In this document: one piece after another, positions 26,421 to 48,446 of the stretch
Layout of the letters: each line of letters begins with the position of its first letter
Numbering within the stretch: the first letter of the stretch is position 1
Source of the DNA: Tubulanus polymorphus
Lineage: Eukaryota > Nemertea > Palaeonemertea > Tubulaniformes > Tubulanidae
DNA: 64,000 bases
Reading direction: 5' to 3'
Assembly: GCF_964204645.1 (NCBI RefSeq)
Contig: NC_134032.1
Span: 6,877,175-6,941,174 of the forward strand
Position numbers and translations under genes: made by a program
The notes under the pieces: model-generated
What the model was told of the DNA's origin: nothing
Seen by the model: the letters and a program-made list of their open reading frames with translations, nothing else
Database searches by the model: none

Positions 26421-27247
26421 AGACCTGTCACACATGTCACACAGTCAGGGCTGGACTGAGAATTCAACACTGGCCCTACTCCATTTCGTAGCACAGTCCT
26501 CGGTGATACTTAATGCGACCCAGTAGGCAGTGGATTTGTAAAGTTTTGATTGAATTGAGTTTGTAAGGTCCTTCATTCGTTATGCGCTTTACTTGTGCCG
26601 GGTGACTACAAATCAGTCGATGAGCACATGATACAGCAAAGTACTTGCCAAAAATAACTGCTGCGCCCAAATAAAAAAATGAATGACAAATTACCACAAC
26701 TTACCCGTACATTACTTGTAGCGTCTTGAATGCTTCCTAGGGCCCCTACACCTTCATCCGCCGCCATGTTGGATCGCGATTGCTAATTTCCGATTAATAC
26801 CGCCATTATACGGTTGCTTGGCCGCATCTGACGGAGCGTTACCGTTTCTAAACGCCTTCTCCCGATTCCTCGCAAGGAACGCCGTTTATTTGCGGTTTTA
26901 GACCTATTTCTACTGTTTTGTTCCGTATTTAATCGATCCGCGAAAAAATGACATGCCAATTTGCGGAGCAAAACGTTTGTCGACGGATTATGCCGTAGCA
27001 AATCGGATCACTATTGGCCGATTTCAGACGTCGGTAAATGAGCGGTTGTTAAAATCGGTTTTTTAGCGGTTAATTCGTGATAAAACGTCGGAAAATGAGC
27101 GGTTTAGCCGTCGGTAAATCGTCGAAATATTGCATCGTTTACCGACGTTTTATCGTCATTTTTACCATCTTTAATTCGTCGGAAGTTCGTCGATAAATTT
27201 TGCGACGAAAAACCGACGATTAACCGCGGCTGGTGGCGCCACGGTTA

Positions 27248-27270
27248 TGACGTCATGAATATGACGTCAT
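27248..27270. promoter_or_regulatory. Two TGACGTCA palindromes near the left end of CACTA 1
   Basis: Perfect CRE-type octamers at about 27,248-27,255 and 27,263-27,270. CACTA 2 has one at the equivalent position (about 38,046). The position lies at the 3' side of the transposon genes, so a promoter role is speculative. Confidence 0.3.
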
Positions 27271-27884
27271 TGAGCCTCGAAGTAGAAAATCGATCTACCA
27301 GCGACCTCATCGAACCTAAGCGCGCGAGTTCATTGGAAAAACCAGAAATAAGTTTTACTCACACACGCAGCGCATCGTTCTTTTATCTGTTTTATGATGC
27401 AATATCATTGGTGATGTTAGGTGACATTACTGCTATCCGGAATCCTGTTATCCGGTACAATACTTCGTTCATGGATGAGATATTGAAGATCCACTTTTCC
27501 AGACTAGTTTCGCGGTTTCTTTCATTCCTTGCTTGCTAGGCCCAAAGTAGTAGGCCCAAAGCTGAAAAAGTTGTAATGTTTAGTGCTGCCGTTGGCGTTG
27601 TGGGTGTAGTTAGTAGGCGGACCTACGTGCTGAAGTAAGTATTTAGCTTTTTTAAATCTTGCAACTGAACATAAAGCAGGCCTAAACTTTTTTTCGAGTT
27701 ATAGAACTTTTCGATCAATGCAAAGCAGCGTTACTTAGGCATATTGATTTTTAATTTTATCATGGACACTTGATCAATTCAGTGCATAGTATTAGGCCTA
27801 AAACGTAAGAGATTCTACTGCCAGTCTTTAATCTAGTATGACCTGTTAACATTAACACCAGAATACTAGGCCTAGATTTGGGGC

Positions 27885-28330
27885 ATCTGAGTATATGCAG
27901 CTCACTGCTCTGTTTAGGTCATATCTTATTTCATTTAGTTGAGAGCATTCTATTATAAAATGAAACTCATCTTCAATGGCATTGCAGTGTTGGCACAGTC
28001 TATTCTCTCTCATCTTCCTCGCTCTATCAGGAGACGATGATTACTTATCCTAAATTTACATGTTGGTTCTAAACAGTTTTGGTAGTATAGGATCCATTAA
28101 GAATGGCGTCATGGTAAATTCAGGATTTAGATTTTTGGAGCAGTCTAGTTTTGGGGAATTTGATATCCATTTGTGCCAAAAAATTTCTCTCTTGTAGTGT
28201 AATTTAGCTCGGGTAAAAGATTTAAAATTAGATGGATTCTCTATCAGTTCAGAATGGTTAAGGATCAGGTAAGTGATCAGGTCTATTCACACAAGTGTCA
28301 TGCATTGATATCTAGGTGTAATCTTTGTAA
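27885..28330 (-). pseudogene. LINE remnant: C-terminal zinc region of a non-LTR polymerase
   Basis: On the minus strand, bases about 28,055-27,900 read KFRISNHRLLIE, then after a one-base break MRENRLCQHC, IEDEFHFIIECSQL and RYDL. The pattern R.C..C-(IEDE)-HF...C with a preceding LRISNHRL block is the C-terminal zinc-knuckle region of Jockey/CR1-like non-LTR elements. Text upstream to 28,330 is broken by several stops. It lies between the second gene and the left end of CACTA 1. Confidence 0.6.
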
Positions 28331-28515
28331 GCACATAAGGCATTTTGTTAGATGTTGTAGATTTAGGAATATGTGAATAGATAATAAATGCTCCTCTTAA
28401 AAAACAAATAAACATGATATCCTGAAATCACTGATAAAAATCCATTGATTTTCGATCATTACCAAATTAACTTGAATATAAATGATTAAATAAAACATGA
28501 TTGAATATTATTTTA

Positions 28516-29548
28516 TTAAGTTAAATTATAATTATTATCGACGAGAACCGACAATCCTTTGCGCCATGTTGGTTTAATCAGTTGACCCAGATTTGTGATC
28601 TTTGTTAATATGACCAATTTTTTGCCGTCTAGAAAATGTAAATAATTATACAATGGCATAAATGACTTACATGGGCTTAGAATAAACCAATTTAATTTCA
28701 TTGGTCTACTGCACTGATGAAATTACCTTCTTTTTCTTCTTTTAGATACCCTTCAAAAAAAAGGTGCCCATCTATCGATTTGATTGCTTGTATGGCTATA
28801 TTCTTCGTTTTCTTAGATTTCCTATACCGATATGTAATTGTTGTAGGTCCTATTGGCATGTTTAAACTAAATTCCATAAATCAATCCCTTATCAAAATTT
28901 ACCTCGCTTTTGTATCTCTCTGGTTTTTGAGATAACTTTTCACCTCTTTCAAAATAATGACGGGGCTGATGTCAACAGCGTGAGCTTTTAGTTGAGTTTC
29001 AATCTGTAAAAATGAAGAATTTATCAGAAATATATTGTCACTTATTGAAAAATCGAAACTCAGCATAGTAAGGCAGAGTATATAGGCCTATTGTTAAAGT
29101 TTCATTTCTTTACCTCATTCGTTGCTTTCGCAACATCTCCATTATTTAGTAATATGCATGTTTTTACCAGGTCCTACAATTAAAGATTAATTGTTTTATT
29201 TGTTGAAAAAGATACCTATATTGATTTAACCTAACAAAACCATTAGCCTACTCTAAACATTCTCCGTTCTTTTGTCATCTTCGTTCCTTTTTGCTTCCTC
29301 ACTTTCGTTAACATTAATTCAGCTGAATATAAATGTATGTTATTACATGATTATATTGAAATTATAATTACATTGCTTTGTATAGTTTTTAGAAGATTTT
29401 GACAAGTTTAATAGCTTTTGAATTACCTTTGTTTATCAAGCTCCATTCTGAAATTGAAAAAAATGTTATTAATAATTAATAAGATGAACTAAAAATGATT
29501 AGAATTTAAGATATTTATGATACCTTCTTCGGTCATTTGAAATTCCAT
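28516..29548 (-). CDS. Second gene of CACTA 1: 161-residue protein in 7 exons, unknown family
   Basis: Exons (minus): 29,548-29,524; 29,447-29,427; 29,322-29,252; 29,173-29,114; 29,003-28,903; 28,821-28,727; 28,628-28,516. All have GT-AG borders and phases agree. The lengths (25, 21, 71, 60, 101, 95, 113) sum to 486 and give one open frame with stop. Landmarks: EEEWSLINKAELMLTKVRK, KERRMFR, a DLVKTCILLNNGD helix, KSYLKNQRDTKARK, a lysine-rich stretch and a C-terminal TNLGQLIKPTWRKG. The copy in CACTA 2 keeps the same structure with about half the residues, which suggests selection. I do not recognise a domain. By analogy with plant TNPA it might bind the subterminal repeats. That is inference. 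Confidence 0.75.
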
Positions 29549-32500
29549 TTTGACTTTTTGTGTCGCTATAGCAGACGCTTGATTATTGGTCACAAGATGG
29601 CAGCACTTATCGGTGGCATTTATTTTGCAGAATAAAATCTTAAAATTGGTATTGGACTTTGAAAAGCTACTAAAAGTTTTCAAAGTTAGCAACAACTGAA
29701 TAGAAATGGGATGCCGATTTAGAAAACAAGAAAAGTTGGCAAGGAATTTCTTCAAGGTTTGAATTATGAAGTTTATTGTATATACATGAAATGATTGTAT
29801 GAACATTGTCGAATACTATACTGTATATCCTTGAAATAATTTAAAATACGCGCGGGGTGCATCTCTCCGTTCTGGTTGTTTTGTTAGTGGTAGACGTAGT
29901 AGTACTATTGATCAATACTACTATACTACTCCTATGCCATAAATTCAATAAATCTTATATCAATGTCAATGCCCAAATTTTATAGCCTTCCTTGGCTATC
30001 ATCAGCTGACATTTCCTTTAATGTTCGATTGGAATAACGCAAGGTGGATATGTCGCCTCTCGAACATCGGTCCACCAGAAACCAGTTTCCTCGTCCAGTC
30101 GCGGCCTGCTGAGGCAGGTGATTAAGGCCAATTCCTTTTAAAATGAATAAATATGTAAAATTGTTTTTTCTTTAATAGAATACATCAATGTTTTATAGAA
30201 TGTTAGATGGAAATGGAAGGGAACGCGTACCTGCTCTTGGCACCTGAAGAGACCATCTATCTTCGATATGTACGTATAGCGTATATCATTTTCATCGAAT
30301 ACTACTTCGTTTCTACGATATTGATGTTCATCTTCACGAAATTCTACTTGCACATATGAGCTGCATGATTTGCTTCCTATATTTTCTTCGTAACTGAAAT
30401 ATTTTTCCTTAGATCAATAATATAACTAAATTACAGTTTTTAAGTAGTTGTTTTAAAATGCTTAATTACCTTGCAGTTCTAAAATGGTATAACATCTCAA
30501 TATCGTGATCTGGTATGGTGGCCATATTAAAAGCTTCGATGGCCTCGATATTATTTTCACTGTAATAAAAAGCTATAAAGTTATATCTTATTAATGCAGT
30601 TACTTTTTTCAAATTTAAGGGCTACCCTAATTTTCAAATTTTAGGATTTTTAGATTTGTATTTTTAAATTTCTCTAATATCTACCCTTCGAAGTATTCCA
30701 TTATTGCTTGTCGTATCTGATTTTCTGGGATGACTAAAGTCGATTTCCCATGAAGATAATCCTGTATATTCCTCGCTCTATAATCTCTATAGGTGATGTT
30801 TGCTTGCATCTGTTGTTGATGTTGTATTTCCTGGTTAAGAATATATGCAAATACAAACATTAGGCCTAACATGCTAAGATTAGTGTGTTGACATCTAATC
30901 CATTACTTACATTAGGTAATAGTAATTGAAGCGGTAAAGGCAGATTTTCATTTCCCATATGTCTTGCGGAATTGTATAGAAGAATTGCCTAGAGAAATAT
31001 ATCATCCTTTACTGTCATTTACTGTAATCATTTTTCTGGCTTGAAAATATTTACAAACATTTATCTGAACAAATACCCTGTGTTTTTTTATGAGACTTTT
31101 CTCAACTTTCATATTTGCTGTATTGATTGATTTTAGACGATGAATTGTGGATTCCATTGGAAACATGTCTACGGCGTGGGCTGTTCCAAAACTTCTGATG
31201 GTATGAATAATGTGGTGATGTAGGTGAAAATGAGCTGTTAACAGAGAAGCAGGTAGACATTTTTCCATCTCTACTAAAGTTGAACTAAGTTCTACTGCAA
31301 TTGTATCCCATTCCGCATTTGTATTTGATGCATATATCTCTGAAAAGTTAAGAACAAATCTTTTTTGTACAACAGTCGATTCACTGTACTCGTTTACCAG
31401 CAATTATTATTTATACCTACTTTCAATGATTTTACAGTATTTGAAGATGGTCGACCTCTGCGAGTTACCCAGCATCCCTCTGAGACAATAAATAAATGGA
31501 CCATTTTTAGCTGCCTGTGGAAGGAAAAAGGGAAATTGATAGATTGTTGAGCATTTCAAAAACCAATTCCTAAGTCAGCATGGTGTCCCTAGACCCCTAG
31601 TTAAAATCATGATCAAGCTAATCGTAGCAGACCTGGCAGTTATCAAATTGTAACGAATACTTCTTCAAGCAAATTTAAACAGTTAACATCATTGTATGAA
31701 GGCATCTTTTACCTCGATGTAATCATACGATTTTGTTTGACTAGTTTCTGTGAAGATGTTGTTGTTCTGTCGATGGGAACATCCTAGTGGCGCTTTTATG
31801 CCGTCCCATCTCTCTTGAATGATATTCTTTTCCCTGACAGTTAAGTTCCAATTAGTCAGTGGGATGTCTTCGTCTATTAACTGAATTGAATATGAGTGTA
31901 TAGATCAATAGAATACATCATATTTTGAAATTTAAAAAAAAAGTGTCAGTTAACCTTTTAATTTGATGATTTTTGCAGAATCTTGGGAGGCTGATGCGTA
32001 CTCCATGTAATTAAAAAACAGGCCTTAGATATACAAACCCAACATTGTTCATTCCTTCCAATTATTTCTTCATACTGACGTACACGAGCACCATCTCTCA
32101 CTTCCGTTTTATTCAGTATTTCTATGAGTTTTTTTAGTAAGCCACTTATCGTATGCATTGGGTCGATTACGATATCAGTGAAGGTGTTGAATTCTTGTAT
32201 ATTAAACAGTATCGATTTATCCCTGAGGCCATTCTCTTGTATCACAATTCCTAAAATGTCAACACAGAACTATGATCAATCTACATGCGTATTATATTTT
32301 GCTCATTTTGTAAATTGCAATATACATTTAATTGGTAATCAGTTGATTTCTATAGTCAGGTCTGTTATGGTTAGCATGATTAGGATTTTTTTGTGGATAC
32401 AGTAGAATCCTTTTGATTCGGGTCAATTGGGATCAACAAAATTCATGTGGTTTACCATCATTTATTCTATTGGCGCTCCTGAGCAGTAGATCATGTGATT

Positions 32501-32625
32501 TGGAATCAAATGGTTGGCGATTTTCAACGTCATTTGTTGTTGAGATACCATTGTCGTTCAAAAATGGTCCTGGTCTACGATTAGGATGGTCATTAGGTAA
32601 ATATCTGAAATGTGGGTGTACATAT

Positions 32626-32724
32626 CAGGGGCCGGTTGCTCAAAGGTTGGTTACGATAACCGGTTGATAAGTTACCGGTTGATAAGTTCTTAACTAACAG
32701 TTAATCTTGAGCAACCAGCCCCTG
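32626..32724. mobile_element. 99-bp MITE inside the CACTA 1 transposase exon
   Basis: Ends CAGGGGCCGGTTGCTCAA and TTGAGCAACCAGCCCCTG are inverted. The interior repeats GGTTGATAAGTTA. Flanks ACATAT and ACATTT fit an imperfect duplication, possibly an 8-bp hAT-type site. It splits the exon and is absent from the paralogous exon of CACTA 2. Confidence 0.75.
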
Positions 32725-34149
32725 ACATTTATCTTCGAGGCCATTTAATTCATATGAAAATATGTATGTATTTGAGAACTTATTCTTGCCTTCGATTTTG
32801 ATGGTAAATCATACGATTCAATGGTTGGGGTCGTATTGCTGGATGAATACATTTTATACATCCATTATATCCTGCTGCTGTTTGATGGTTTAAGGTCAAA
32901 CAGTGGCTTTCGTAGTCACCTTTCATCATTATCAGTTTACCCTAGAAACAGTGATTCATATACCAGAATTATCTAAAATATTGACCGATTAGAATGTGGC
33001 GAATCTTTGAATTGGGACCCCAAGCTATCGTGACAAGTCCCTGTAGGGCTATTGCGTTTACTTTTCATCTGTTGGGGAACTTACCTTTAATTGAAAGATC
33101 TCCCCATTTCTCCCGTCGATAGCGTCGATGCCATTGTTAAGACGATTTAATTCGGCCACAAGAGGTTCAAGAAAACCATTGATTGATCGTTTGTTTTTGG
33201 ATGGTATGATGCCGTATACGAAAGTATTTTCGTACAATTTGCTTTCCGATAGCCTGAAATTTGAAAAATATTGAGAAATGAATTACACACTCTGAACGAG
33301 AATAGTTCATTACTAGATCTATGAAACTTCGCAACTCCTAATTTAATCCACTTTGAACTTATATATATATTCACCTTAGATTCAGGAAATTGATCAAAAT
33401 TGGCCATATAGAATGTTTTTTCTTATGGAAGACATTTGTCCCATCTAGAGTCAAGGAGAGGGATATTCCTCGTCTATCTCCGACAAAAAAACCATTTTCA
33501 GAATACAATTCTGTCCATTTTTCTGTTTCATGAAGATTGAATATTCTGAAAGGTGATAAGAAAAAGAAATCTCACATATTAACATTAAGTAATGAAATTA
33601 CAGCTTAAATTAGGCTTCACTTCCTATTGACCTTTCGCCATCATTTTGTCGTGCATACTGCGTCGCTCTTTCTCCCATATTGAAATATCTGAACTGCCCT
33701 GCAATTCAATTTACGTAGCTAGATTAGAAACATAGTAAATTCAATAGGCTATTGTGTAGCTATACACAATAAAATCCCTGCTCAATGCTCAATAGCGATC
33801 TCATTTTTAGCATACCTTTTAGATAAGGGATCAAAGGCATCCATGTAAAATCAACGGTTTCCTCTGAACCGCATTTTTGACAATTTTGTCTGTCTCTATT
33901 TTCATACCAATACATCGTGCATCCGTTTACACAAACTTTCTCTTTGCGAAATTTACCAAATATTTGCCTCTCTATGGTTTCAAGCTGTTTCACTGTTGTT
34001 GGCGTAATGTTTGGTTGCGGTAAGATGTGATGAATAAAATACAGTAATTTATTCATTGCAGTTTTTGACATTTTCTGTCCTTTTGCGTGAAAAGAAGATA
34101 CCATTCCGACAAACTGTATTAATTTTACATCGGAACCTTCGTAAATCAT

Positions 34150-34445
34150 TTGTTCAAATCTTTCATGCTGTCCATAATCCCCTTCATCATTATCACCATC
34201 TTCTACATCATCCCAATCATCACCGTCGTCTCCATCTCCACCATCATCACCGTCATCTCCATCTCCACCATCATCACCGTCATCTCCACCATCATCACCG
34301 TCGTCTCCATCTCCACCATCATCTCCACCATCACCGTCCTCTCCATCTCCACCATCATCTCCATCATCACCGTCCTCTCCATCTCCGCCATCATCTCCAT
34401 CATCACCGTCATCACTGGCATGATCACCATCTCCACCATCATCAT
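34150..34445 (-). repeat. Trinucleotide-like coding repeat (acidic tract of the transposase)
   Basis: GGTGATGATGG/GGAGATG units on the minus strand encode runs of Asp and Gly in the transposase. Other frames give His-, Ile- and Met-rich artefacts. The paralogue has a longer, purer Asp run at 45,480-45,740. Confidence 0.85.
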
Positions 34446-35839
34446 TTACATTATCGTCATTGTATCCGTCATAATTCTTGTTGTGCTGATCTTCGTGAAT
34501 CTGTTCAAGAATGATAAGCTTAATGCTTCATAAATAATCAAAAATTCATATACATGTAGTCTTTATATAGTTTTGATATGATTACATACTACAGCATTTG
34601 TACCCCCCCCCCTGCCACTAATGATATGACGCAATATCAGGGTTCTTTTGATTGAATTCATAATATATTGAGTTTTGAGGTCATTGGTTTCAGTGGTATA
34701 CGGAAAAAATGTCCCCAGAAAAAATGTCCCAGTCTATCATTACTAACTTGGTAAATGTAGTTAATTTCACATCATAATAACACCAGAAAACAAACTTGGT
34801 ATTATATTTTAATTAAAATTTTAACATTTGATAACAAATAATGGCTCTACTTTGCGATTAATTATTTGTATTATAAATTTAGAATCTTACATTTGACTTA
34901 TTATTTGAAGTAACTGTGCATTCACTTAATAACTTTTCATAATTTTCTCCATTAATGATATGTAATTAAGTAACTGCACATTCAATTCAATAGTAAAATC
35001 TCCTTAAATTTGAAACTAGGGAGCGTTGAATATTGAATTGTTAGATTGTTGAGCATTTTTAACCACATCCCAAGTGGGTATGATGTCTCTGGTTTCCTAG
35101 ACCTAACTCAGTTTCGTTTTACGTGCATTAAAATGTTAGATAAATGAACTATGTATTTACTTGAAGGTCTGCAATATTACATGTAGTTGAATTTTCAGAA
35201 CTCTCATTGTACTCGCATGTCACGTCTAACTGTAATGTGCAATACATAATTTAAGTTATATCATATCATAACTCCTAAAGTCCAGAGAACTACAGTCAGA
35301 AATGCTAAGAAAATGTTCTCGCATCAATACATACCTTTACATTCTTGATTCGTGCTTCCTGGTCATCGAACATGTACTTTCGCTTATGTCTATACCGGGT
35401 GACACGATTGACATATTTTCCTTTGCACTTCTGGCACGGGCAATAAACCGTCGACATTGCTAAATTGAAAAAGAAATTATGAATACTCTGTGTCCACTGA
35501 TTTTGTTAATTTTTGGCGAACCGTAGGTTTGCCTATGCAAACGGTCTTGTGAAACAGTTTTCATTGAAAATGAATAGAGTACCGGTGTGTCAACAAGGCA
35601 TAAACATTGGCCATTGAATCAATAGTGTTGATTTTTGGTGTCATGGTTTAGCTTAATGAGTTCTCGAGCCCACAAAAAATTCATTGTGATCGAGTTATTT
35701 TTAAGGGACTTATTCTTGAAAAACACGTAAAAACCCTGCTTTTTAGCACTAAGTAATGTCACGTTTTTACGTATGACAATTATATATAACGAGAGAAATC
35801 CCACAATAAGTAGTGCCAAAACGAGAAACTTGAATAGAA

Positions 35840-36130
35840 GAGTTATATATATTTGCGCAACGTTTCGGCTAAAGACTATTAGCCATCATCAGGCGTTCTC
35901 AGTACTCGTCTCAACAATCGCCTTTTTTTATGAACCGTGGTGCTCTACTCTATATTCAATTTTCAGGTTCGAATCCCTGCTGCAGAGGGAGGATGTGTTA
36001 GATGGCGAACACCGGGGGAGATGCATCTAACAGTAAAGTATACGCAGCCTCTCAGAATGGCACTGGGGGCTGATGCATAGTTTACAAGGTTCAGTTACCT
36101 GAACTGAACGTTCGTCAGAAATAAAGAGTA
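35840..36130 (+). mobile_element. SINE-like insert with B box, next to a CCATCATCAGG motif
   Basis: CAACGTTTCGGCTAAAGACT followed by AGCCATCATCAGG at about 35,858-35,895, then CAGGTTCGAATCCCTGCTGC (B box) and GCAGAGGGAGGATG, which is shared with the SINE at 26,353. A ~120-bp body follows to about 36,130. It lies upstream of the CACTA 1 transposase start. Confidence 0.5.
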
Positions 36131-36320
36131 AGACAAGAAAGAAACGATTGAGAGTTTCATGTGTACGTGTACATTCAATTTAGAACTTTATTTTTGACGT
36201 GGAAATATTAAACATCAATACATATCAATACATATAAGTTATTTTATTTACACAAACTCGAGAAATCGTAGAATATGGTCAGTAGTAGACCATTTTGGTC
36301 TAAATCCGGCTTGTGATTCA

Positions 36321-36826
36321 CTACTGTCTGTCACACCTACTCTCCGTGCGACGTTTTGGTCCGTAATTTCGTTAATAATCGGTTTATCTACCTTTATTAT
36401 GCATCAATTTGTTCAGTGAGGAATTTGCATTCAGAAATAAACAACAATTTTCACTTAATTGGTTTTTGTTTTCATTTATGAGCGATAGTTTACTCAGCAT
36501 ACGCTCGCGTAATGCTGAAAAATCCGCTCCGCGGACGCTCGGAAACGTTACAGTGACGTCATCACCTGCTCATTAGCATATCAAAATAAAGTAGGTGGCG
36601 CCACGTGACGGGCCATAAAAGCCGTTTTTCAGCATTACGCGAGCGTATGCTAGGTAAACTATCGCTGATAGAAGAAAACACAAACAAATTTCTGCCAGTT
36701 CATGATTTATTTCTGAATGCAAATTCCTTACTGAACAAATTGATGCATAATATTTACAGATCAACCGATTATTAACGAAATTACGGACCAAAACGTCGCA
36801 CGAAGAGCATGTGTGACAGACAGTAG
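36321..36826. repeat. Fold-back element, ~200-bp arms
   Basis: Arms 36,321-36,522 and 36,625-36,826 are inverted copies: ctactgtctgtcac / gtgacagacagtag, GCGACGTTTTGGTCCG / CGGACCAAAACGTCGC, and AGCATACGCTCGCGTAATGC / GCATTACGCGAGCGTATGCT. The 100-bp centre contains TGACGTCA. It lies in the 5' region of CACTA 1 and not at the matching place in CACTA 2. Confidence 0.85.
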
Positions 36827-37582
36827 TTATATTGTTTGTAGATTTGGGAATAAACACAGGTCGTGGTCACGGACGGACGTATTTTCGGCACGCTCCGGTA
36901 CAGCGCGATTAACGATATCGATGTGAAGCAACGAGGTTAGTTAGAAACTTTTGTAAGACGATATAGTTTGTAGAGCCTCTGTTGGTGCTGCCATCTATAA
37001 TTTAGTTTCGAAATTATTGTATCCGAAATTTCGCTTATCTTAACAAAAAGATATGTATACAGTAATAAATCAGCGTCGGGAGTTTGTCGTCGTTATTTTG
37101 TTAATCGTTTGGAGGTTATGAAATTTGCTCTTCGTATCGCGCTTTTGTTTTATCGCATCCACCACACCTTCGACGCCGTTTTCACTCATGTGCACTCACG
37201 CACACCGATCAGTTTGGTCTGTAAATAAATCATTTAAAGAAAACATTACTCACGTTACTCTTCGTGTTTGTTTCTATATTTCTTTTGTCTAAGAGGAGAT
37301 ATTTGTAGGACTTATGGTTGAAAATCGTGATTGGAAATGGAATTTGAACATTATTATATAACTACGTGTACTGTTGCTACCATGGTGATAAAAACCGACG
37401 ATCTTCCGACGATTTCAATTCTGTCGGAAAATCGTCGTTAATCCTATCCGTCGTTAATTAGTCTGTAAATAACCGCTAGATAACCGACGATATTAATCTG
37501 ACAATTTACCGCTTAATTTCCGTCGATTTACCGACATTTAATCTACCAAATAACCGCTCATTTACCGCAAGGGCCAATAGTG

Positions 37583-37814
37583 GATTTTGACCAAATTTCA
37601 AGTGAAAGGGCCGATTTTTCAGGAATAGACCGCATATGCACGGGAAAATCAGCGTGAAATTTCGGTTATGGCCGAACAGTTTTTTACAGTGTAGGCATCA
37701 GACCACAATTAGGTTAGTAGCTCGAAGATGCGTAGGGCCGGACCCCAAAAATAGTACCTAAAGTGAACGGGTCCCCCATAAATGTTGCCATAATTTCTGC
37801 AAATGGGATAGGTA
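37583..37814. other. Short spacer between the two CACTA elements
   Basis: Holds the remaining 109 bp of the outer element up to CAGTG at 37,691, then about 120 bp without features, ending in GGTA before CACTATTGG. Confidence 0.6.
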
Positions 37815-38821
37815 CACTATTGGCCGATTTTGGCCGTCGGTAAATGAGCGGTTCTCTTAATCGGTTATTGAGCGGTTTTCCGGTGGTAAATCGTCGGTAA
37901 ATGAGTGATTTTGTTGTCGGAAAATTGTCGGAAAACTGTCCACCTTTCCGACAATTAACCGACGCTTCACGGAGTCGAAAGATCGTCGGTTATTCGTCGA
38001 TAAGCGCAACCGTCATATTTCCGACAGTTTTCGACGCTCCACATCGGTGACGTCATTAAATAGATTTCTACCGGGTAACGCTCCTTTCGCACCCGGAACT
38101 ACGTTACTGCGTGGTGAACTAGGTCATCGCGTATATACACACACCAGTTCGACTTAATACACGGATTTTCATTAGACACATACGCAAGGCTCATGAGCTC
38201 GTTTTTACTGCAATAACAGCTGCTCTTCAACAGTTCAAGGCATTAATATTCAATAAATTTCTCCGCGTTTGGTAAGTACCGGCATGAAATATTTGTTTTG
38301 TGAATGTTTCATGTCACTAGGCTATGTAAGTTTTTTTGCTGGCGGATTTTTTAGCCGTTAGCCGAGCGTACTACGTGCACGACGTAGTCGTAGAGTTCAT
38401 CAGTTAGAGGCCTATGATGGCCTAGTTTTATCGTGGTGGATCCACTACGTAGAAAATGATACTATGACCTGATGACTGGTAGATTATATGTATGGTGACC
38501 TCAGGCCAAGTTGACCATTTGTTGGCATGGGCATGGAATATGCTTTATTACTGCTTTGCTCAAGTACTGCTAGGCAAATAGTTTTTTTTCGAATTTTTTT
38601 TTCAATCCCCCGACACGTGTTACTCAAACTGTCAATGTATTGGAAAACCCAAAAGACGTCACTTTGTAGTGATGAGAAATGATTTGGAAATAGCTACATA
38701 CACCCAAAGAAGCTAAAAGGTAAGCATAACTTCAATAAATATAACATTTTATATTTAATCATTCAAAAGTATAAAATTATGAATTTAATAACGAAACAAG
38801 TATACTAGTAGGTATTTGAAA

Positions 38822-40032
38822 TTAATTTAATAATAATTTGAAATTGTTTGTAACGATAACTGTAACGCCTTTTTTCCATTTGGGTCGTATCAATTTGCCA
38901 AGATTTGTCATACATTTTATAACCACCAGATAGTTTCCATCTGAATAGAAATGTGACATTTCAGTTATAGAGTCTTTTTTTTATAAGATGTTTTGTGCAA
39001 AAATAATAAAGCTTACCTTCTTTCTGTTTTTTCAATACGCATTGCCCAATTACATTATCCTCCGGGCAAGTTATGTCGAAAGTCTTTTCTGTTGATTGTT
39101 GTTGCTTCTTCTTTCTAAGATTATTGAAATTAGAAGAAAATGATATATCGTATATGTTCCCGGAGATGACTTTTGATGTGCATTCATCTGGGAAGATACT
39201 TAACTCAGTGATGAATACATCTTAGTGAAATTAAATTTTTTTAAAGCCAATGCTGTTTTTTTTTTAATGATTGAAGTTCTATACAAATTTAGACTACCGT
39301 AATGACGTAAACTATATTTTATAGCCAACATCCTTTTCTTGTAATTTGCTCTTATCTGTGTATTGTATTCAACTTAGCTTCTTCAAACCTGTACATACCT
39401 TGCTTCTGTATCTCTTCTGTTCTTCTTATACGATTTTATTTCTTTATTGATAGTATTTAGACTCATATGAGTGCCAATTTTATTCAATTCTTCTTGTATC
39501 TGCAAAGTAGAATTTCATTCTCTGCTGTAGTGAAAATAAGGATTCTTTATAAATTGCACAAGCAATTTGATAACAATGTATCATTTTCGTCGCTTTCATC
39601 AAGTTTTGTTCAATATTACACACCACTTTTACTAAATCCTAGAGATAAAAAACTACTTTCATTTTTATATTTTCATCAGTAGTAGAATGAGGATTTGAGA
39701 TTAAAATTTTAATCTAACTTTTTACCCTTAATAGTTTTCTTTCTGCCGTCATTGTTGTACCTTTTTCTTTCTTTTTCTTTGTCATCATTAATTCTCCTAC
39801 AGATACGAATAATTTATTATTAAGTTTCCAATTATTATTTATTTTCATACAACTTGAATATACTCAAATACATCTTGTTCAGTTGCTACCTTTGTTTATC
39901 AGGCTCCAATCTGCAAGAAAGAGAAAGCAATTAAAGATTTAACAAAATTTAGTCATGAATTATTGAATATCGATCTCATAAAATTATATGAACGATACCT
40001 TGGTCTGTTAGTCCTATGTCTGCCAATGCCAT
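38822..40032 (-). CDS. Second gene of CACTA 2, homologue of the 28.5-kb gene
   Basis: Exons (minus): 40,032-39,999; 39,910-39,890; 39,796-39,726; from 39,638; 39,499-39,399; 39,114-39,017; 38,940-38,822. Exons of 21, 71 and 101 nt are identical in length to CACTA 1, and the others differ by multiples of three. Shared landmarks: QDWSLINKGELM, KGTTMTAERKLLR, DLVK, IKSYKKNRRDTEAR, then TNLGKLIRPKWKKG near the end. Exon 4 has no canonical donor: where CACTA 1 has GAG|GTAAAG, this copy has AAAATGATACAT. The gene may therefore be defective or use another site. Function unknown. See the CACTA 1 copy. Confidence 0.65.
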
Positions 40033-40114
40033 ATTTTTGTAAAAGTTGTATTTTCCTTGAAAAATAATAGCCTACACTGAAAATTGAATGTTTTGGATCT
40101 CTCATTTCTTATCT

Positions 40115-40170
40115 TTATTGTGTTTTGTTAAGAAATGCCTTTAAAGGCATTTCTTAACAAAACACAATAA
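40115..40170. repeat. Perfect 56-bp palindrome without spacer
   Basis: 40,115-40,142 is the exact reverse complement of 40,143-40,170 (centre CCTTTAAAGG). Imperfect pairing continues about 14 bp further (CATTTCTTAT / ATAAGAAATG). It lies between the two genes of CACTA 2. The rest of 40,171-41,153 holds promoter-proximal non-coding DNA with no further gene. Confidence 0.9.
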
Positions 40171-41153
40171 TCATAAGAAATGTAGGCCCCTATAAGAAAT
40201 GTATAAGAATTGTATAAGAAACTAAATAGTTTATTTTTACAGAAACAAACGTACCTGGAATTGCAATGTGTCAAATTTGTCTGAGCAGAAGACAATTGCT
40301 TGTAGGTGGCAGCACCTTTCAGCATATATTTTTCAAAAGTCAAATGTTCAAGAACGATTTTTTTATGATCAACAAATTGTTTTTAATTCATTATCTTCTA
40401 TGTTCTATTTTATATTGTTATAAAATCAAATTAAATTCAGATAAAATATAGTAAAGCGATCTAGCTTTTTAGGTAGCATTAGCGGTACATGAAAATCGTA
40501 ACAGCACTCGTCAGCAGCATGCAGTCTGAAGTGAAGTTGGAAGCTACAACCAATCTGTATTCTCAGCCACGTTCGTTCATCTAAAACCCAAAGGTAAGTT
40601 ATCAAATATGATGTTTCAAGGGGCCCATGGATTTAAAATGTCAGCATGACGTGATCCCGTGTGAAAATATTAATTATCTTTAACGTTAGTTATTTATGTT
40701 ACAACAATCATCAACATCCTAAAACTGAATATAATGCACAAAAAATATAAAGTCATCGATAAAACGGTTTCTTAATCAATATTTGATATCTTGACTGCCA
40801 TTAAAAATTCGGATTGCAATGTTAAAGTTTGGAAATTAAGGGATTATTATAGGAACGTGACTGCCTTGTCGGCTATCTAACTAATATTTTGAAAGCTGAG
40901 CTACTACTAGCGCCATCTATCGGACTCCAATTGAAGCTGTTCATTGTTTGCAAATTTTTGAAATAACTGAAAATAATGAAACTGAAAATAATGGATAATC
41001 GAAAAACCTCAAGTTTTCAGGTGACAGTAAACTGATATCTAACTTAGGCTTTAGACTTTCTATCATGTTATACGAAATCAGAATAGAAAGGAAATGAGAT
41101 GAAGATTTTTTTGTTACATAAAATTTTCATACTTGCCTGTGTATTTGTTATAT

Positions 41154-44100
41154 TTATACCAATGATAAAGCCCATATCCTGGGATATTCTTCTGCCGTGA
41201 TGATTTGGCATTTCAGAAGATGTCGCAAGGGTACTAGACATGGATCGTACATGTCTTCTCTTAAGTCACTCCACCAAAAGCCAGTTTCATTATCAATGTG
41301 TGGCCTGCTTAAGCATGCTATTAATGCTAGTTCCTTTAATTGATAGGTAGGCTACTTATTATTAATTTGGATTAAATCATTATTATTTAATTCAAACCGA
41401 TAAAATTCCAGTACACATACCTCCCCATTGCATTTTATAAATTTCAATATTTTTGAAATGTACGTATATTGGACTTGACCCTCAACAATGACTTCATTTC
41501 TATGCCCTCTGTTTTCAGCTTCTTCAAACTCAATTTGTAAGTACGAACTGCATGTTTTTATTCGGTGATTTTCTTCATAGCTGCCATGTACAAAATTTCA
41601 CAGTGCATGTTAACTTATCAAACCAGATGTAAAAATCTCCGAATCATGGTCTGGTAATACGGCCATGTCGTATACTTCGACTGGACCGAAGTTATTGCTG
41701 AAAAAGGAAGAATTAGCGATACACTTTCATATATAATCAGTCATGACTATTTTGTTAATATTGGTAAAGATTTCTTTTTATTTGTTTGTACCCGTCGAAA
41801 TATTGAATCAAAGCCTCTAAAACTTGATGTGCGGGAAGAATGATTTCGGAATACCCATACAGATTTGAATGTATGTTCCTGTGACAATAATTTCTGTATG
41901 TAGTTGAAGTGGTCATTGGCTGGTGGTCATCAACATGCTCGAAATCCTGTTGATTATAAAAAAGAAAGAAAGAGGTTTCATTTCAAAGGGGATCATTTCT
42001 TTAATACTTATTTTCGATTATGATTTCATGTCATTTGGAATCTTACATTGGGTAGCAGTGATCGAAGCGCATTAGGTAGATCGTCCATATTAAGTAAATG
42101 CCTCGCTGAGTTAAACGTGAGTAGTGCCTGAAATAATTGTCATTATCATTTCATGTCCATATTATCTTGAAATATTGAAAACTGATGGCTCTTACCTTAT
42201 GTTTTTTCATCAAACTCTTTTCAACATTTTGCTTTGCAGTATTCATTTGTTTCAGTTTATGGATGCATGACTCGGAGGAAAACATATGAATGGAATGAGC
42301 CGTGCCAAACTTACTAATCGAGTCAATTATGTGGTGATGAAGGTGACAATGAAGGGTGAGTAAAGACGCAGGGTAAAATTTTTCTATGTCAACCAAGATT
42401 GCAGAAATCTGTGTGGTCAGTTCTTGCCATTCGGCATTTGTATTTGAATTGTAGATATCTGAAATAGAATAGAAAGATAGTCATTTTATATTTTCAAATG
42501 TTACATTTTGTGCCTATGATTGACACTTACTTCCTACTAGTTTACAATACTTGAAGAATGTCCTTCTCTGATGCACTCCAAGCATACCTCGCAAACAGAA
42601 AATTAATGGAGAATGAATTGCACCCTAAAATGAAGATGATAAGTATGAAGACACGGTAATATGTTTTTCTCTTTAAAAAAAAGTAATTCTATTTATTTTA
42701 TTGAATATTTACTTCAATGTAGTCGTACGATTTCATGTTGCTACTAGGATCGAATGGATTTCCCTCTGTTCTGAATGAACATCCTAATGGCGCCTTAATA
42801 CATGCCCATCTCCCTTTCATAAGTTCTTTTTCTTGGGCTGATAGGTTCCATTCAGCTGGTGGCAGATTTTCATCGATGAGCTGAAAAAGAATTAATGAAA
42901 TAAGCTTAAGACTCAAGTGCCATGATTATCTTACAGAATAGCACTATATAAACAAATAAATTATTATCATAAGGGATAATTTATTTATTTTATTTTTATT
43001 TATTTATTTTACCTACGCACTAGGGGAGGGGTAACTGTAAATGCGTACTGTAATGCTTAATGTATATTAAAAAAATGGCTTATTTTGTGTACAAGGGGAG
43101 GGGTTTAAACAGTAAAATTTTATGCAATAAATGAATGATCCCTAATTATTAAAAGGAGCTGAAATTAGTTAATGAAAATTTATTGTAGAAAATGTAATAG
43201 TGCTACAAACCCAACATTGTTCATTTTGCAATAGCATTTCTTCGTACTGTCTTACTCTTGCACCATCTCTCACTTCGTTGCCATTGAATGCTTCGATAAA
43301 TTTCTTTATCATACCACTGATGGTATGCATAGGATCCAATGCAATGATAACATTGACATTTGTTTCATCTAAATCAAACAGAATCGACCGCCCTTTGAAG
43401 CCGAGTTCCTGCCTAACTATTCCTAAGATTTCAAATGAACATATTATAACGCATTTTATAAATTTTTCTTTAAGTTGATGGTAATTCTTGATTGATGTAC
43501 CGTTATTAACTCTGTTTGCACTTCTCAACATAATGCCATGGGTTTTTTCTTCAGGCGGATGTCGTACCTCGATATTTCTAGTCGTTGAATTTCCATCATC
43601 GCTGATTAATGGTGCATCTACTTCAATTCGCTGCACATGATTAACTGGTAAGTATCTGATACGAAAATCAGAAGCAATGTTTCTAAGAATATATCTTAAC
43701 ATACAATTGGTATTCAAATGTAGAATTTTTTCTTGCCTCCGATTCTGATGGTAGATCATTCTATTCAACGGTTGTGGGTGAATACCATGTTGGCAACATT
43801 TTATGCACCCATCAAAGCCAGCTGCTGTCTGATGCATCAATGTCAAACAGTGACTCTCGTAATCACCCCGATCATTAACAACTTGCCCTGATTGATAAAA
43901 TATACTTATGGCGAATGCACTACATTTATTTTTAGAGTACATCTTTTTCAAGTCGAGGATAAATAATTTTGACTGGGGTATTCTGATATGAATTATTTAC
44001 CTTTAATTCGAAGTGTTCAAGATTACGACTTCCGTCTATTGTTGGTACGCCTTGCAATAATTCATTGATTTCAGTAATTAATGGCTCTAAAAAGCCGTTT

Positions 44101-45546
44101 ACGCTTTTTCGTTTGTTCATTTTCATTAATCCATATATGAAAGTATTTTCATATGCCTTCCCTTCTGATGGTCTTAAATTGATAAAACCAGTTCTTATTA
44201 TTCCTCAGACTTCTATCAATTAATATTATGATATGTTGTATATCGGAGACATCAATTTCACTACATGTACCTTAGATTTAAAAAGTTGATCATGATCGGC
44301 CACACTGTATATTTCTTGTGTCTGAATGCGTTAGTGCCGTCCATCGTTAGGGCCAATCCTAGGCATCGCCTATCACCTTGGAACAGTCCATTCTCATAAA
44401 AGAGACGTTGCCATGTTTCCGTTTGATGCAGGTTGAATATTCTATTAAAATAATGTGTAGATATATTTTAGTAAGCTGATGATGACGTCAGTAATAGGGA
44501 TAATAGGCTTTCAGATCAAAGGTCGAAGGGTCGAGTGAGTAAAAAATGAAAATGACTATAATTTACAGTTGAATCTAACTCATACAAATATGAATATTGA
44601 AATAATGTTGTAAATATATCTATATATCTATTATATAAGAGCTTACACTTTTATATTGAATAATGTATCAATTTAAATGTTATTCATTTACATGATTATT
44701 TTAAGAGTAATAGGGATAATAGGCTTTCAGGTTAAAGGTTGAAGGGGCGAGTGAGTAAAAAATGAAAATAACAATAATTAACAGTTGAATTAGGAGTGTG
44801 CGCGACTAATTCAACTGTAAATTATAGTTATTTTCATTTTTTACTCGACCCTTCGACCTTTGATCTGAAAGCCTATTATCCCTATTACTGACGTCATCAC
44901 AACCCCCCATTATGTAGAATAGTAGCTACCTACCTTTCACCATCATTTGGTCTTAAATATTCAGTGACCCTACGCGCCATGTTGAAGTGTTCATATTGTC
45001 CTAGAGAGAGATCAAAGAGATGTATTTTAACACTTCTAAACAGAATCTAGTTTTATTCATACCTAGATAAAATCAAATAATTAACCATTATGCAGATATC
45101 ATGTATCTTAGATGGTTTACCTTTCAGATATGGGATTAGTGGCATCCACGTGAATATAGTAGTCTCAGTAGACCCACATTTGTCACATCGTTCAAGATGG
45201 CGATTGTTCCTCCAAAACATCATACAACCATTTGTACACACTTTTTCGCTACGCATATTCCCGAATATATATTTTTCTAACGTCTCTAGCTGTTTTACAG
45301 AGCGTGGTGTTATATTCGGTTGGGGTAAAATGTGGTGTATCATATTCAGTGTTCTTGTCATTTCTGTTTTCGATATGCCAGTGGTTGCTCTCGCATATAG
45401 TGATGTAACAATGCCGATATACTGTATGAGATTGATATCCGAACCTTCATAAATAGGTTGTTGAAAAATCTCGTGGTCACCATAGTTACCTACATCAGCC
45501 TCTCCATCGTCATCACCACCATCATCCCCTCCATCACCATCATCCT

Positions 45547-45588
<42 letters not shown>

Positions 45589-46160
45589 CTCCATCATCAT
45601 CATCATCACCATCATCGTCCCCTTCTTCATCATCACCATTATCATCACCATCATCATCCCGTCCATCTCCCTCATCTGCTCCATCTCCAATTGCTCCATC
45701 TTCATCATTCGCTCCATCTTCATCCTCTCTATAATCATCTCCATCACCATCCCCTCCATCATCTTCAAATCTTCTATTGTTATTTCCACCATCGTATTCG
45801 GCATGATTTCCTGCACCTTCAACTGTATTTTCGATGATACCACATTCCACGCTAATCTATGTAAATAAGCATGATTTATAAAGCAATAACTTATTACTCT
45901 ACATAACATTTAGCCAGATGAAAAGGATATTTGTGGGCGAGTTGGTAAGTAAATTTATTTCGAGGTCATTAATGAGGTAGTAAATGGTTTTGCTAAATTT
46001 TATTATTATTATTTGAGTCCCAGCCATTAGGACTTGCCTTTAATTCTTTTGTACTTTCGTTAATTAGAACATCTTCAAATTTTCTCTTGTGCCTTTTCCG
46101 GGTTCTGCGGCACACCATATTGCCATGACATTTTGCACAAAAGCAGATCACCTTTGACAT
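41154..46160 (-). pseudogene. CACTA 2 transposase (TNP2-like), 15 exons, one apparent frameshift
   Basis: Exons (minus): 46,160-46,038; 45,856-45,121; 45,000-44,934; 44,441-44,271; 44,172-44,001; 43,887-43,501; 43,422-43,211; 42,880-42,713; 42,624-42,531; 42,458-42,196; 42,127-42,047; 41,946-41,792; about 41,689; about 41,582-41,428; 41,335-41,154. Landmarks: CFCAKCHGNMV; long Asp tract; KVCTNGCMMFW and CDKCGS; WMPLIPYLK; LALTMDGTNAF; YTVWPIMINFLNL; GDYESHCLTLMHQTAAGFDG; LDPMHTISG; IKAPLGCSF; FCLRGMLG; YPASLLTLHCHLHHHI; last exon ETGFWWSDLRE to WALSLV. Exon 1 ends in a GC donor (AAG|GCAAGT). Exon 6 is one base shorter than its paralogue near 43,868, the only break I see, so this copy is close to intact. 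Confidence 0.8.
44480..44889. repeat. Intronic fold-back plus a direct copy of one arm
   Basis: Arms 44,705-44,797 and 44,810-44,889 are inverted copies (GTAATAGGGATAATAGGCTT / AAGCCTATTATCCCTATTAC). A third copy of the arm, preceded by GACGTCA, lies at 44,480-44,573. All are inside one transposase intron of CACTA 2 and absent from the CACTA 1 intron. Confidence 0.85.
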
Positions 46161-46512
46161 TGCAACTGAAACTATATACAATTTTAAAACTAGAATATAT
46201 TGAATATTCTTGAATGGGCTTTTGGTTGATCGCATCTACCCCGTACGTAGTTCCTTTTCGTGGGTTGAAATATTTTTTGTTTGCATTTTAAGATGGACTG
46301 GAACAAAACAAAATGATTTGAAATTCGTTTTTTATTTGATTATTTTCAACTTTGATGAAAACCTCGATGGGCTGCTGAAGAAAATAAAAACTGAAAATTG
46401 TATCCTGAACAGTTAATTGCGTGGGTTATCAGATAGATGGCGTATGGGGTAGAGACGTTCTTGGGAAAGTTGAGGCTTTTCAAAATCGACGCAGCTGGTT
46501 TTTCCTATGTTA

Positions 46513-47401
46513 GGCCAGATAAACAAATACCTAGTTTCTCAAGAAAGTCAAATGCCGCCCGCGTCATTAAGAGTGCCCAATAAACATTGAAAAGTAAAAT
46601 GTGCCCTCATCGCCAAAGCATCTATCGTGTTTTTTTTATCACAAACGCCGCTCGTCTGCATCTGTAAATTGTAACACAGTCGTTTTTTTCCTACACGCTA
46701 TGCGTCTATCATGTCAACACGCCGAACTGGTCATTGAGTTGTTAAGTCGAGGAAAATGATTGTGGCCGGATGATCGCCTCCGTTTCGATGCCGTAATAAG
46801 ACGATATCGTTTAATCTCATAAGTTTAGCGTTAATAAGCATTTGCCATATCTTCTTGTAAGTATTTGTCTTTGAGGCACCGTCTTTGGCATTGGTCTGGA
46901 ATGGTGAGCGGAAATTAACGATTGAGAAACTTTGGAGAAATATTTGGTTGTTATCAGTAGAAGTCAAATAATACTATTAGTCTGCCTGCTGGTGCTGGTA
47001 AGTCATTAAATAGCCACCGGGCAGTTCTAAAATCTTGAAATCTGCTTTTTTAAATAAATATTACAGATAGGATAAGTTACAGTGGTTTATTTGTTCAATT
47101 CGTGGATTTGATGTCACATCGCATTTTAAGGATCTCGAGCCTCCACTTAACCGTGGGTTGTGATTCGAGTTGGTTCTTTAGGCTAAAAAATTGATACCTT
47201 GTTTCTCTGCTCCGCTGAGATTAAAACCTGGCCGTGCTGGCCGCCTATCTACCCTATACATATTTTTTTAATCGTGTTCAATTTTACCTTAACAGACCCG
47301 GCAGCTATAGAAATGAACTGTTTAATTATAAAATAGGCCAATGATATTTTCCAAAATGACCCGGCCCATGCGAAGAAACTAGGTATTGTTTGTGTTTAGC
47401 C
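46513..47401. mobile_element. PIF/Harbinger-like non-autonomous element 1 (889 bp)
   Basis: Inverted ends GGCCAGATAAACAAATACCT and (reverse) GGCTAAACACAAACAATACC, then CTAGTTTCT in both. Flanks TTA at 46,510-46,512 and 47,402-47,404 are the 3-bp TWA duplication of PIF/Harbinger elements. The interior left part matches, in inverted order, the element at 52,615-53,203. No transposase. A 78-residue frame on - (46,967-46,731) is unrecognised. Confidence 0.75.
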
Positions 47402-48446
47402 TTAGACTTTTTGTTAGAAATAAGAATAACACAAGTCAACTGAAAATTTCATTTTAATTCAATTTTGAACTTTATTTGACACGTGGACCTATTCAACATC
47501 GTACATTTTCATTAATACCTGGAACCATTTTCATAAGAATATTTTAGCGTTCTGTTGGTGCTGCCATCTGTAATTCAGTTTCGAAATTATGTTATCTTAT
47601 AATTCGCATATCTTCATGAAAAGCGCCGCGAGTACGTCATCATTATTTTGTTTTAATGTCATTTTTGTTTGCCATTTGGCGAGTATGACATGCACAAATC
47701 GCGCTTTTGGTTGATCGCATCTACCGTCGGTACCTCTTTCGTATGTGCCGCTCTCCCGGTACACACCGAGCAGAATGTTCGTATAGTGCTGTAAATAAGA
47801 CAATGATAGATAATGGAGAAACTTACATACAATTTTCGTCTATATTTAGTCAAATCTGCTGATCTGGGTATAGCTGTTAACGGTGCTGCGTTGACTTACG
47901 AAGTGAATTTTGAACATCGTTAGAAACTGATTGCACTGTTGGGAGTATCATGGCAACTCGCAAAAACCGACGATTTTCCGCTAGTACTCAGTCTATCGGA
48001 AATTCGTCGGAAAATCTTCGATAATCCATTTCGTCGGAAAATTATCGGTTAATAACCGCTAAAAATCCGTTACGTAACGAATTTCGGTTATATGTATGAA
48101 ATCCATTGATCCTGAGAGACAGCTTGATGATGAAATAAGGGATTCCCTGGACTTTTTTTTGCTTGGAGTAAGGGTACCAAACACGGTGGGGGATTCCCTT
48201 AGATATTTGGCTCGGATGTACTGGCATACCTGTACTGGGATACCCCTCCTTTCTAAAGGTTTGATTATTTCAAAAGTTAGGTTGGGTATGTGGGGCGAAA
48301 ACCACTTCAATGCGTAGCTAAGATGCTGGCCTATGAGCCATAAGCAGGATTTCCCCTGAATTTACGCCCTTATATATGAACTGAACTCTCGAATTTCTTG
48401 TTTTTACTATAGGATATAGAAGATTTTGGAATAGTGGTCTGAGCTC
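47402..48446. other. 5' region of CACTA 2 and unassigned DNA
   Basis: 47,545-47,612 (GTTGGTGCTGCCATCTGTAA) matches 36,975-37,040 of CACTA 1, so this is the shared 5' non-coding region. From 48,076 to 48,446 there is unassigned DNA with overlapping short frames on both strands (48,059-48,317) that I cannot identify. Confidence 0.5.

Follow-up and report, generated by a model that had tools for sequence, protein, structure and literature searches.

The 64-kb window analyzed here, on contig C8 of the 267.8-Mb genome of Tubulanus polymorphus, carries two adjacent CACTA elements, designated E1 and E2, each encoding on the minus strand a TNP2-like transposase and, downstream of it, a separate seven-exon gene for a small protein. 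An initial annotation of the same DNA had described this arrangement, and the element ends, the Transposase_21 match and the gene models all agree with it. The genome yields 39 matches to Wnt-family exons (best E 1.1e-64), against zero in 14 control genomes, in keeping with an animal host, since the Wnt family is known only from animals. We interpret E1 and E2 as two subfamilies of one low-copy CACTA (EnSpm) family of cut-and-paste DNA transposons. Sequence evidence establishes how the elements are built, that each has a second gene, and that this gene is conserved and linked to the transposase. The further reading, that this two-subfamily animal family employs a separate small basic protein, with its own promoter, for TNPA-like binding of the element ends, has in our judgment an even chance of being correct.

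Two neighboring CACTA elements with two genes each

E1 is a complete CACTA element of 10,574 bp (27009..37582, genes on the minus strand) that ends in CACTATTGGCC on each side and is flanked by the duplication GAT. E2 (37815..~48069, minus strand) represents the second subfamily and retains its 3' CACTA end, the same end as in E1; on its far side, where no CACTA end was detected, it is short of the first 96 bp of its close relative C9. The C9 element measures 10,037 bp and has both CACTA ends and the duplication TTT. The CACTA..TAGTG termini form inverted repeats, present at both ends of E1 and C9 and at one end of E2, and a 3-bp target-site duplication (GAT in E1, TTT in C9) flanks the only two complete copies that could be assessed. 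Most CCGACG/CGTCGG motifs lie within 400 bp of an element end, namely 9 of E1's 10 occurrences and 7 of C9's 8. In E1, six lie in the 3' subterminal region (27009..27408) and three in the 5' subterminal region (37183..37582), each bounded by its CACTATTGGCC end. Within the 3' subterminal region of E2 (37815..38214), the first 145 bp match at least 8 genome places, E2 and E1 included, so the family looks low-copy; all copy counts given here are lower bounds. Whole-length DNA comparison of E1 with C9 yielded short matches only, up to ~200 bp.

The transposase genes of E1 (29966..35457, minus strand) and E2 (41154..46160, minus strand) were each modeled with 14 exons. The N-terminal part of the E1 product matches Pfam Transposase_21 (E 8.4e-16; 58.3 bits against a cut-off of 28.6). 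DUF4218, a domain carried by plant CACTA elements, aligns with the C-terminal part at 24.6 bits, just under its cut-off of 27 (E 2.4e-5); CIKC and HLHHH stretches, candidates for the superfamily's C(2)C and H(3-4)H motifs between the second D and the last E, were noticed in a translation by eye only. Both window copies are probably dead. Exon 6 of E1 (32941-32039) is broken, each frame of the exon model containing 13 or more stops, and exon 6 of E2 (43887-43211) has 677 nucleotides (nt), one short of the 678 in C9, so that the disruption previously reported for each copy of this exon is borne out. Compared with C9, E2 is also missing ~101 bp at exon 12 of its transposase, and its small gene is damaged too, because the exon-4 donor reads AT instead of the GT found in C9, C1 and C10a. 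In the related copy C9 both genes are open: with exon 12 ended at a GT donor present in C9, the transposase frame runs over 1,040 codons to its stop, and an alternative donor 21 nt earlier leaves it open as well.

The small gene of E1 (28516..29548, minus strand; exons 29548-29524, 29447-29427, 29322-29252, 29173-29114, 29003-28903, 28821-28727 and 28628-28516) encodes 161 amino acids with an isoelectric point (pI) of 9.75. Its counterpart in E2 (38822..40032, minus strand; exons 40032-39999, 39910-39890, 39796-39726, 39638-39582, 39499-39399, 39114-39017 and 38940-38822) encodes 166 amino acids. In each element the small gene has its own ATG and lies downstream of the transposase gene on the same strand. 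The protein of C9 (pI 9.74) is 99% identical to that of E2; between the two subfamilies identity is 44–45%, with exon borders corresponding.

The initial annotation had rested the pairing of the two elements on shared exon lengths and protein motifs, and most of these details stand. The small-gene exons of 21, 71 and 101 nt match in both copies, and the remaining ones (25/34, 60/57, 95/98 and 113/119 nt in E1/E2) differ by multiples of three. The stretch EWSLINK, attributed to both proteins, is found in E1; E2 reads DWSLINK. Transposase exons of 123, 67, 171, 168, 94 and 263 nt are present as listed; the acceptors that fit the 212-nt exon lie at 32250 and 43422, but in the open copy C9 that stretch belongs to a single 678-nt exon.

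Protein and DNA searches of the genome placed the small gene at no fewer than nine positions: E1, E2, C9 (C9:11.33 Mb), C1 (C1:12.28 Mb), C10a (C10:5.22 Mb), C6 (C6:14.43 Mb), C46, C21 and C10b (C10:3.86 Mb). C46 matches E1 almost perfectly, with blocks at ~99–100% identity, and is not treated as a separate copy. At six of the nine places (E1, E2, C9, C46 and, in part, C1 and C10a), transposase sequence precedes the small gene on its strand, so the recurrence of the small gene beside TNP2-like transposases, proposed earlier as a check in related genomes, is found within this genome. Conversely, all four near-complete transposase copies (E1, E2, C9 and C46; three of them independent) carry the small gene. 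The remaining transposase matches, on C2, C6, C8 and C12, at another place on C1 and in another C46 stretch, are confined to portions of the gene. Beside five other TNP2 places, no small-gene relative was found in 3.2–3.4 kb each or among the genome-search matches listed. A decayed E1-type transposase fragment, L046 (C8:6945185-6946369), lies near the pair, ~4 kb past the window's right end.

A shared upstream motif suggests that each gene has its own promoter. TGCTGCCATCT occurs exactly three times in the 64 kb (0.03 expected), every time inside an element: at 29595..29605 (minus strand), ~47 bp before the ATG of E1's small gene; at 36986..36996 (plus strand), ~1.5 kb before the ATG of E1's transposase and in opposite orientation to it; and at 47559..47569 (plus strand), ~1.4 kb before the ATG of E2's transposase, again in opposite orientation. 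The one-mismatch form TGCTGCCACCT lies at 40304..40314 (minus strand), ~270 bp before the ATG of E2's small gene, and GTGCTGCCAYCT stands upstream of all four element genes in the window. With one mismatch allowed there are seven matches in the window against 0.61 expected, three of them elsewhere in the window. C9 and C46 share the arrangement and C1 retains the transposase-side site; the motif was not found in C10a, C6, C21 or C10b.

Constraint on the small gene

When splice sites are projected from E1 or E2 onto the relatives, most exons are found to share them. In the decayed copy C10a, the acceptors of exons 5 and 7 and the donor of exon 6 are gone, and truncated copies are without upstream small-gene exons. 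Because most splice borders recur in independent copies, the gene models are not a product of chance.

The ratio of nonsynonymous to synonymous change (dN/dS) was estimated for small-gene exons in pairs of copies by a codon model with a likelihood-ratio test. It was 0.072 for E1–C21 (exons 3–7, 143 codons), 0.203 for E1–C6 (exons 5–7, 101 codons), 0.129 for E1–C10b (exons 5 and 7, 64 codons) and 0.210 for E2–C10a (154 codons, two stop-bearing codons set aside), significantly below 1 in all four informative pairs (p from 1.8e-19 to 1.2e-5). E1–C46 and E2–C9 had too few changes for an estimate, and E1–E2 was not used, synonymous change being saturated. The purifying selection proposed from the conserved residues is thus matched by low ratios, complicated by raised synonymous divergence: because the synonymous yardstick is itself raised in the diverged copies, dN/dS is weakened as proof of constraint. 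For E2–C10a, second codon positions (14/160 changed) against introns (128/662) indicate that amino-acid change was slowed. A firmer argument is the 44% protein identity between E1 and E2, together with corresponding exon borders, although the DNA comparison of E1 with C9 gives only the short matches noted above. We read the small gene as an element gene under protein-level constraint, and not as a chance frame.

A role for the small protein and its alternatives

In the model that we favor, each element would encode a DDE (TNP2) transposase and a separately started, seven-exon small basic protein, each gene being driven by its own promoter. The small protein would bind the subterminal CCGACG-type repeats and would assemble or regulate the transposition complex, which is TNPA's job in plant En/Spm. 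This TNPA-like role is a best guess by analogy, since a fast-diverging basic protein beside subterminal repeats fits it. According to the available text of one account, En/Spm in plants requires both TNPD and TNPA, and the TNPA-type proteins of different elements are little alike (PMC2613891).

Several observations weigh against this proposal. The TNPA of En/Spm is far larger, at 67 kd, in the same available text (PMC2613891), and Pfam, NCBIfam and PDB searches recognized no DNA-binding domain in the small protein. At three of the nine small-gene places, C6, C21 and C10b, no transposase turned up at E 0.01 in the sequence retrieved around them, though C6 is cut off ahead of exon 5 and C21 sits less than 3 kb from a contig end. 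The pair E2–C1 has zero synonymous change and fits a dN/dS above 1 (p=0.049). Within the E1 clade, amino-acid change is not clearly slowed relative to introns, second codon positions having changed at 6/103 against 14/179 sites in E1–C6, 11/98 against 12/176 in E1–C10b and 21/146 against 55/339 in E1–C21.

The small gene could instead be a genuine element gene with another job, such as anti-silencing, repression of transposition or nuclear carriage of the transposase, a possibility that we regard as appreciable though not probable. It would suit a protein without family match or recognized DNA-binding domain, and one that diverges more (45% identity) than the transposase pieces of E1 against C9 (56–65%); the protein is, however, small, strongly basic and linked to the transposase, and plant members of the superfamily need an end-binding second protein, as far as the available text goes (PMC2613891). 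An unlikely arrangement, in our view, is that the transposase and the seven exons, as its 3' exons, form one alternatively spliced unit, an organization found in maize En/Spm and probable for SmTRC1. Strand and order are those of the transposase, tnpA and tnpD of plants have exons in common (PMC2613891, available text), and clone B4 of SmTRC1 has two tandem reading frames in the accessible part of its report (PMC1636069). Yet the small gene has its own ATG and the shared motif precedes each gene, and this unit is made less likely because the open transposase frame of C9 stops 726 bp upstream of the small gene.

Capture of a host gene by the element is very improbable. A host gene might well have seven spliced exons, and an ancient capture whose source was later lost may lie behind the small gene; genome-wide protein and DNA searches, however, list only the nine element-type places and a weak 27% match at C5, and no Pfam family reaches its cut-off. 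For the E1 protein no Pfam family appeared at E 5, for the E2 protein Pfam returned only names far below cut-off, and NCBIfam and PDB gave nothing credible. None of the outcomes that would have refuted the initial annotation, a match to an unrelated host gene family among them, came up. A Myb/SANT-like domain, suggested by eye, was unsupported by family searches, and no similarity was found that would make the small gene a duplicate of part of the transposase.

The TNPA-like proposal draws on a close likeness to plant CACTA/En-Spm elements (TNPD/TNP2 plus TNPA; Tam1, Tgm), which share CACTA ends, a 3-bp duplication, subterminal repeats, the TNP2 domain and a smaller second protein from the same element. 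The present family differs in its animal host, in a second protein of 161–166 amino acids against the 67-kd TNPA and without detected family similarity, and in giving that protein its own ATG and possibly its own promoter, where plant elements share exons. Among animal relatives, SmTRC1 of Schistosoma mansoni and other TRC elements resemble it in Transposase_21 and in spliced second products, PrA and PrB, as far as the accessible text of their report shows (PMC1636069). In that text TRC ends start with CCC, and 2-bp direct repeats are given for the Tribolium and Aedes elements (PMC1636069); the elements in the window, unlike these, have CACTA ends and 3-bp duplications. The second products are likened here by description. 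The EnSpm superfamily in Repbase (CMC/CMCT clade) shares CAC..GTG ends and 3-bp duplications in the accessible text (PMC12730594), and a Repbase consensus for the family in the window may already exist.

The small gene had been called undescribed. No report of its protein was found among the papers listed by literature searches (one search was weak, nearly all its matches coming through the word "transposase"), and the protein is without match; a second gene in an animal CACTA relative is nevertheless not new in kind, since second spliced products of SmTRC1 have been known since 2006, in the accessible text (PMC1636069). SmTRC1 is the only comparable report of a second protein that we found for animal CACTA elements. 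The present family adds an example from an animal that has plant-like ends and includes a copy whose two genes are both open, which makes the two-protein question testable in cells.

Exon divergence and other features of the elements

In diverged copies, exons differ more than introns, and the pace shifts at exon borders (alignment of 28516-29322 with C6, C10b and C21), fourfold sites having changed ~2–9 times more than introns. Identity between E1 and C10b is 0.94 in intron 4, 0.75 in exon 5, 0.90 in intron 5, 0.83 in exon 6, 0.96 in intron 6, 0.71 in exon 7 and 0.85 in the 3' flank; between E1 and C6 it is 0.87 in exon 5, 0.95 in intron 5, 0.88 in exon 6, 0.90 in intron 6, 0.83 in exon 7 and 0.95 in the 3' flank. 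The trend is less clean for E1 and C21 (intron 4 0.79 against exon 4 0.78; intron 5 and exon 6 both 0.79), a pair in which conservation is lacking in intron 2 (0.53) and the 3' flank (0.60). Fourfold against intron changes were 9/29 against 14/179 for E1–C6, 13/22 against 12/176 for E1–C10b, 18/33 against 55/339 for E1–C21, 11/24 against 16/176 for C6–C10b, 11/23 against 29/173 for C6–C21 and 13/21 against 26/170 for C10b–C21. E2–C10a gave 15/36 against 128/662, with a 3' flank (36/99) about equal to the fourfold sites, and the close pairs E1–C46, E2–C9 and E2–C1 had zero fourfold change. This pattern was recognized post hoc, in few copies and at non-independent sites, and its p-values serve as guides only.

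The transposase gene shows the exon excess in E2–C10a (31/68 against 64/416, p 1e-7), weakly in E2–L047 (15/201 against 32/949, p 0.016) and without significance in E1–L046 (9/50 against 22/241, p 0.08); the near-identical pair E2–C9 has none (3/265 against 10/1630). In one three-copy comparison over exons 5–7, third positions changed at 16/98 sites on the E1 branch, 19/98 on C10b and 3/98 on the truncated C6, with 6, 13 and 8 of 231 noncoding changes, respectively (Fisher p 2e-5, 3e-4 and 1). The excess is thus present on the E1 and C10b branches and absent on truncated C6, a pattern at odds with an ordinary clock provided that a single history in this genome underlies all three copies. A second set (C9, L047 and C10a) had too few changes, at 6, 1 and 39 of 169 third positions and 3, 2 and 20 of 171 intron sites.

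CpG or deaminase mutation was rejected as the cause, the change types being mixed; in the three E1 pairs the excess persists outside CpG and in both base classes. In E2–C10a it holds for A/T sites only. The anomaly may reflect selection on the spliced message, such as escape from small RNAs, a mutation process tied to spliced RNA, or gene conversion that homogenizes introns but leaves exons distinct, a process known from immune genes. Tentatively, and with a low probability, we suggest that a reader of spliced messages selects for sequence escape and drives the exons of active elements to silent and amino-acid change that outpaces the introns. If so, transposon exons would record an RNA-level arms race, with introns as a built-in neutral clock and dead copies as a control. 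Exon-over-intron divergence in transposon genes was not found reported among the papers listed by literature searches; should it hold in more copies and species, selection on transposon messages could be read in a simple way from sequence.

Several further features lie within or beside the elements. Nine-base tandem repeats (34155-34475 and 45454-45660) give the N-terminal portion of each transposase an acidic Asp/Gly tract, which C9 has too. An E2 transposase intron holds an insertion with 57-bp perfect inverted repeats (44480-44899), which has at least 31 further genome matches of ~300 bp at 92–96% identity, and a ~72-bp stretch in an E1 transposase intron (31886-31958) recurs at 35 or more other genome places at 91–96%. 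A second inverted-repeat structure, with 122-bp and 66-bp arms, occupies 36320-36827 in the 5' part of E1 and is probably an insertion. Outside the pair, a 437-amino-acid open frame on the minus strand (49600-50913) resembles, by eye, the reverse transcriptase of a non-long-terminal-repeat (non-LTR) retrotransposon.

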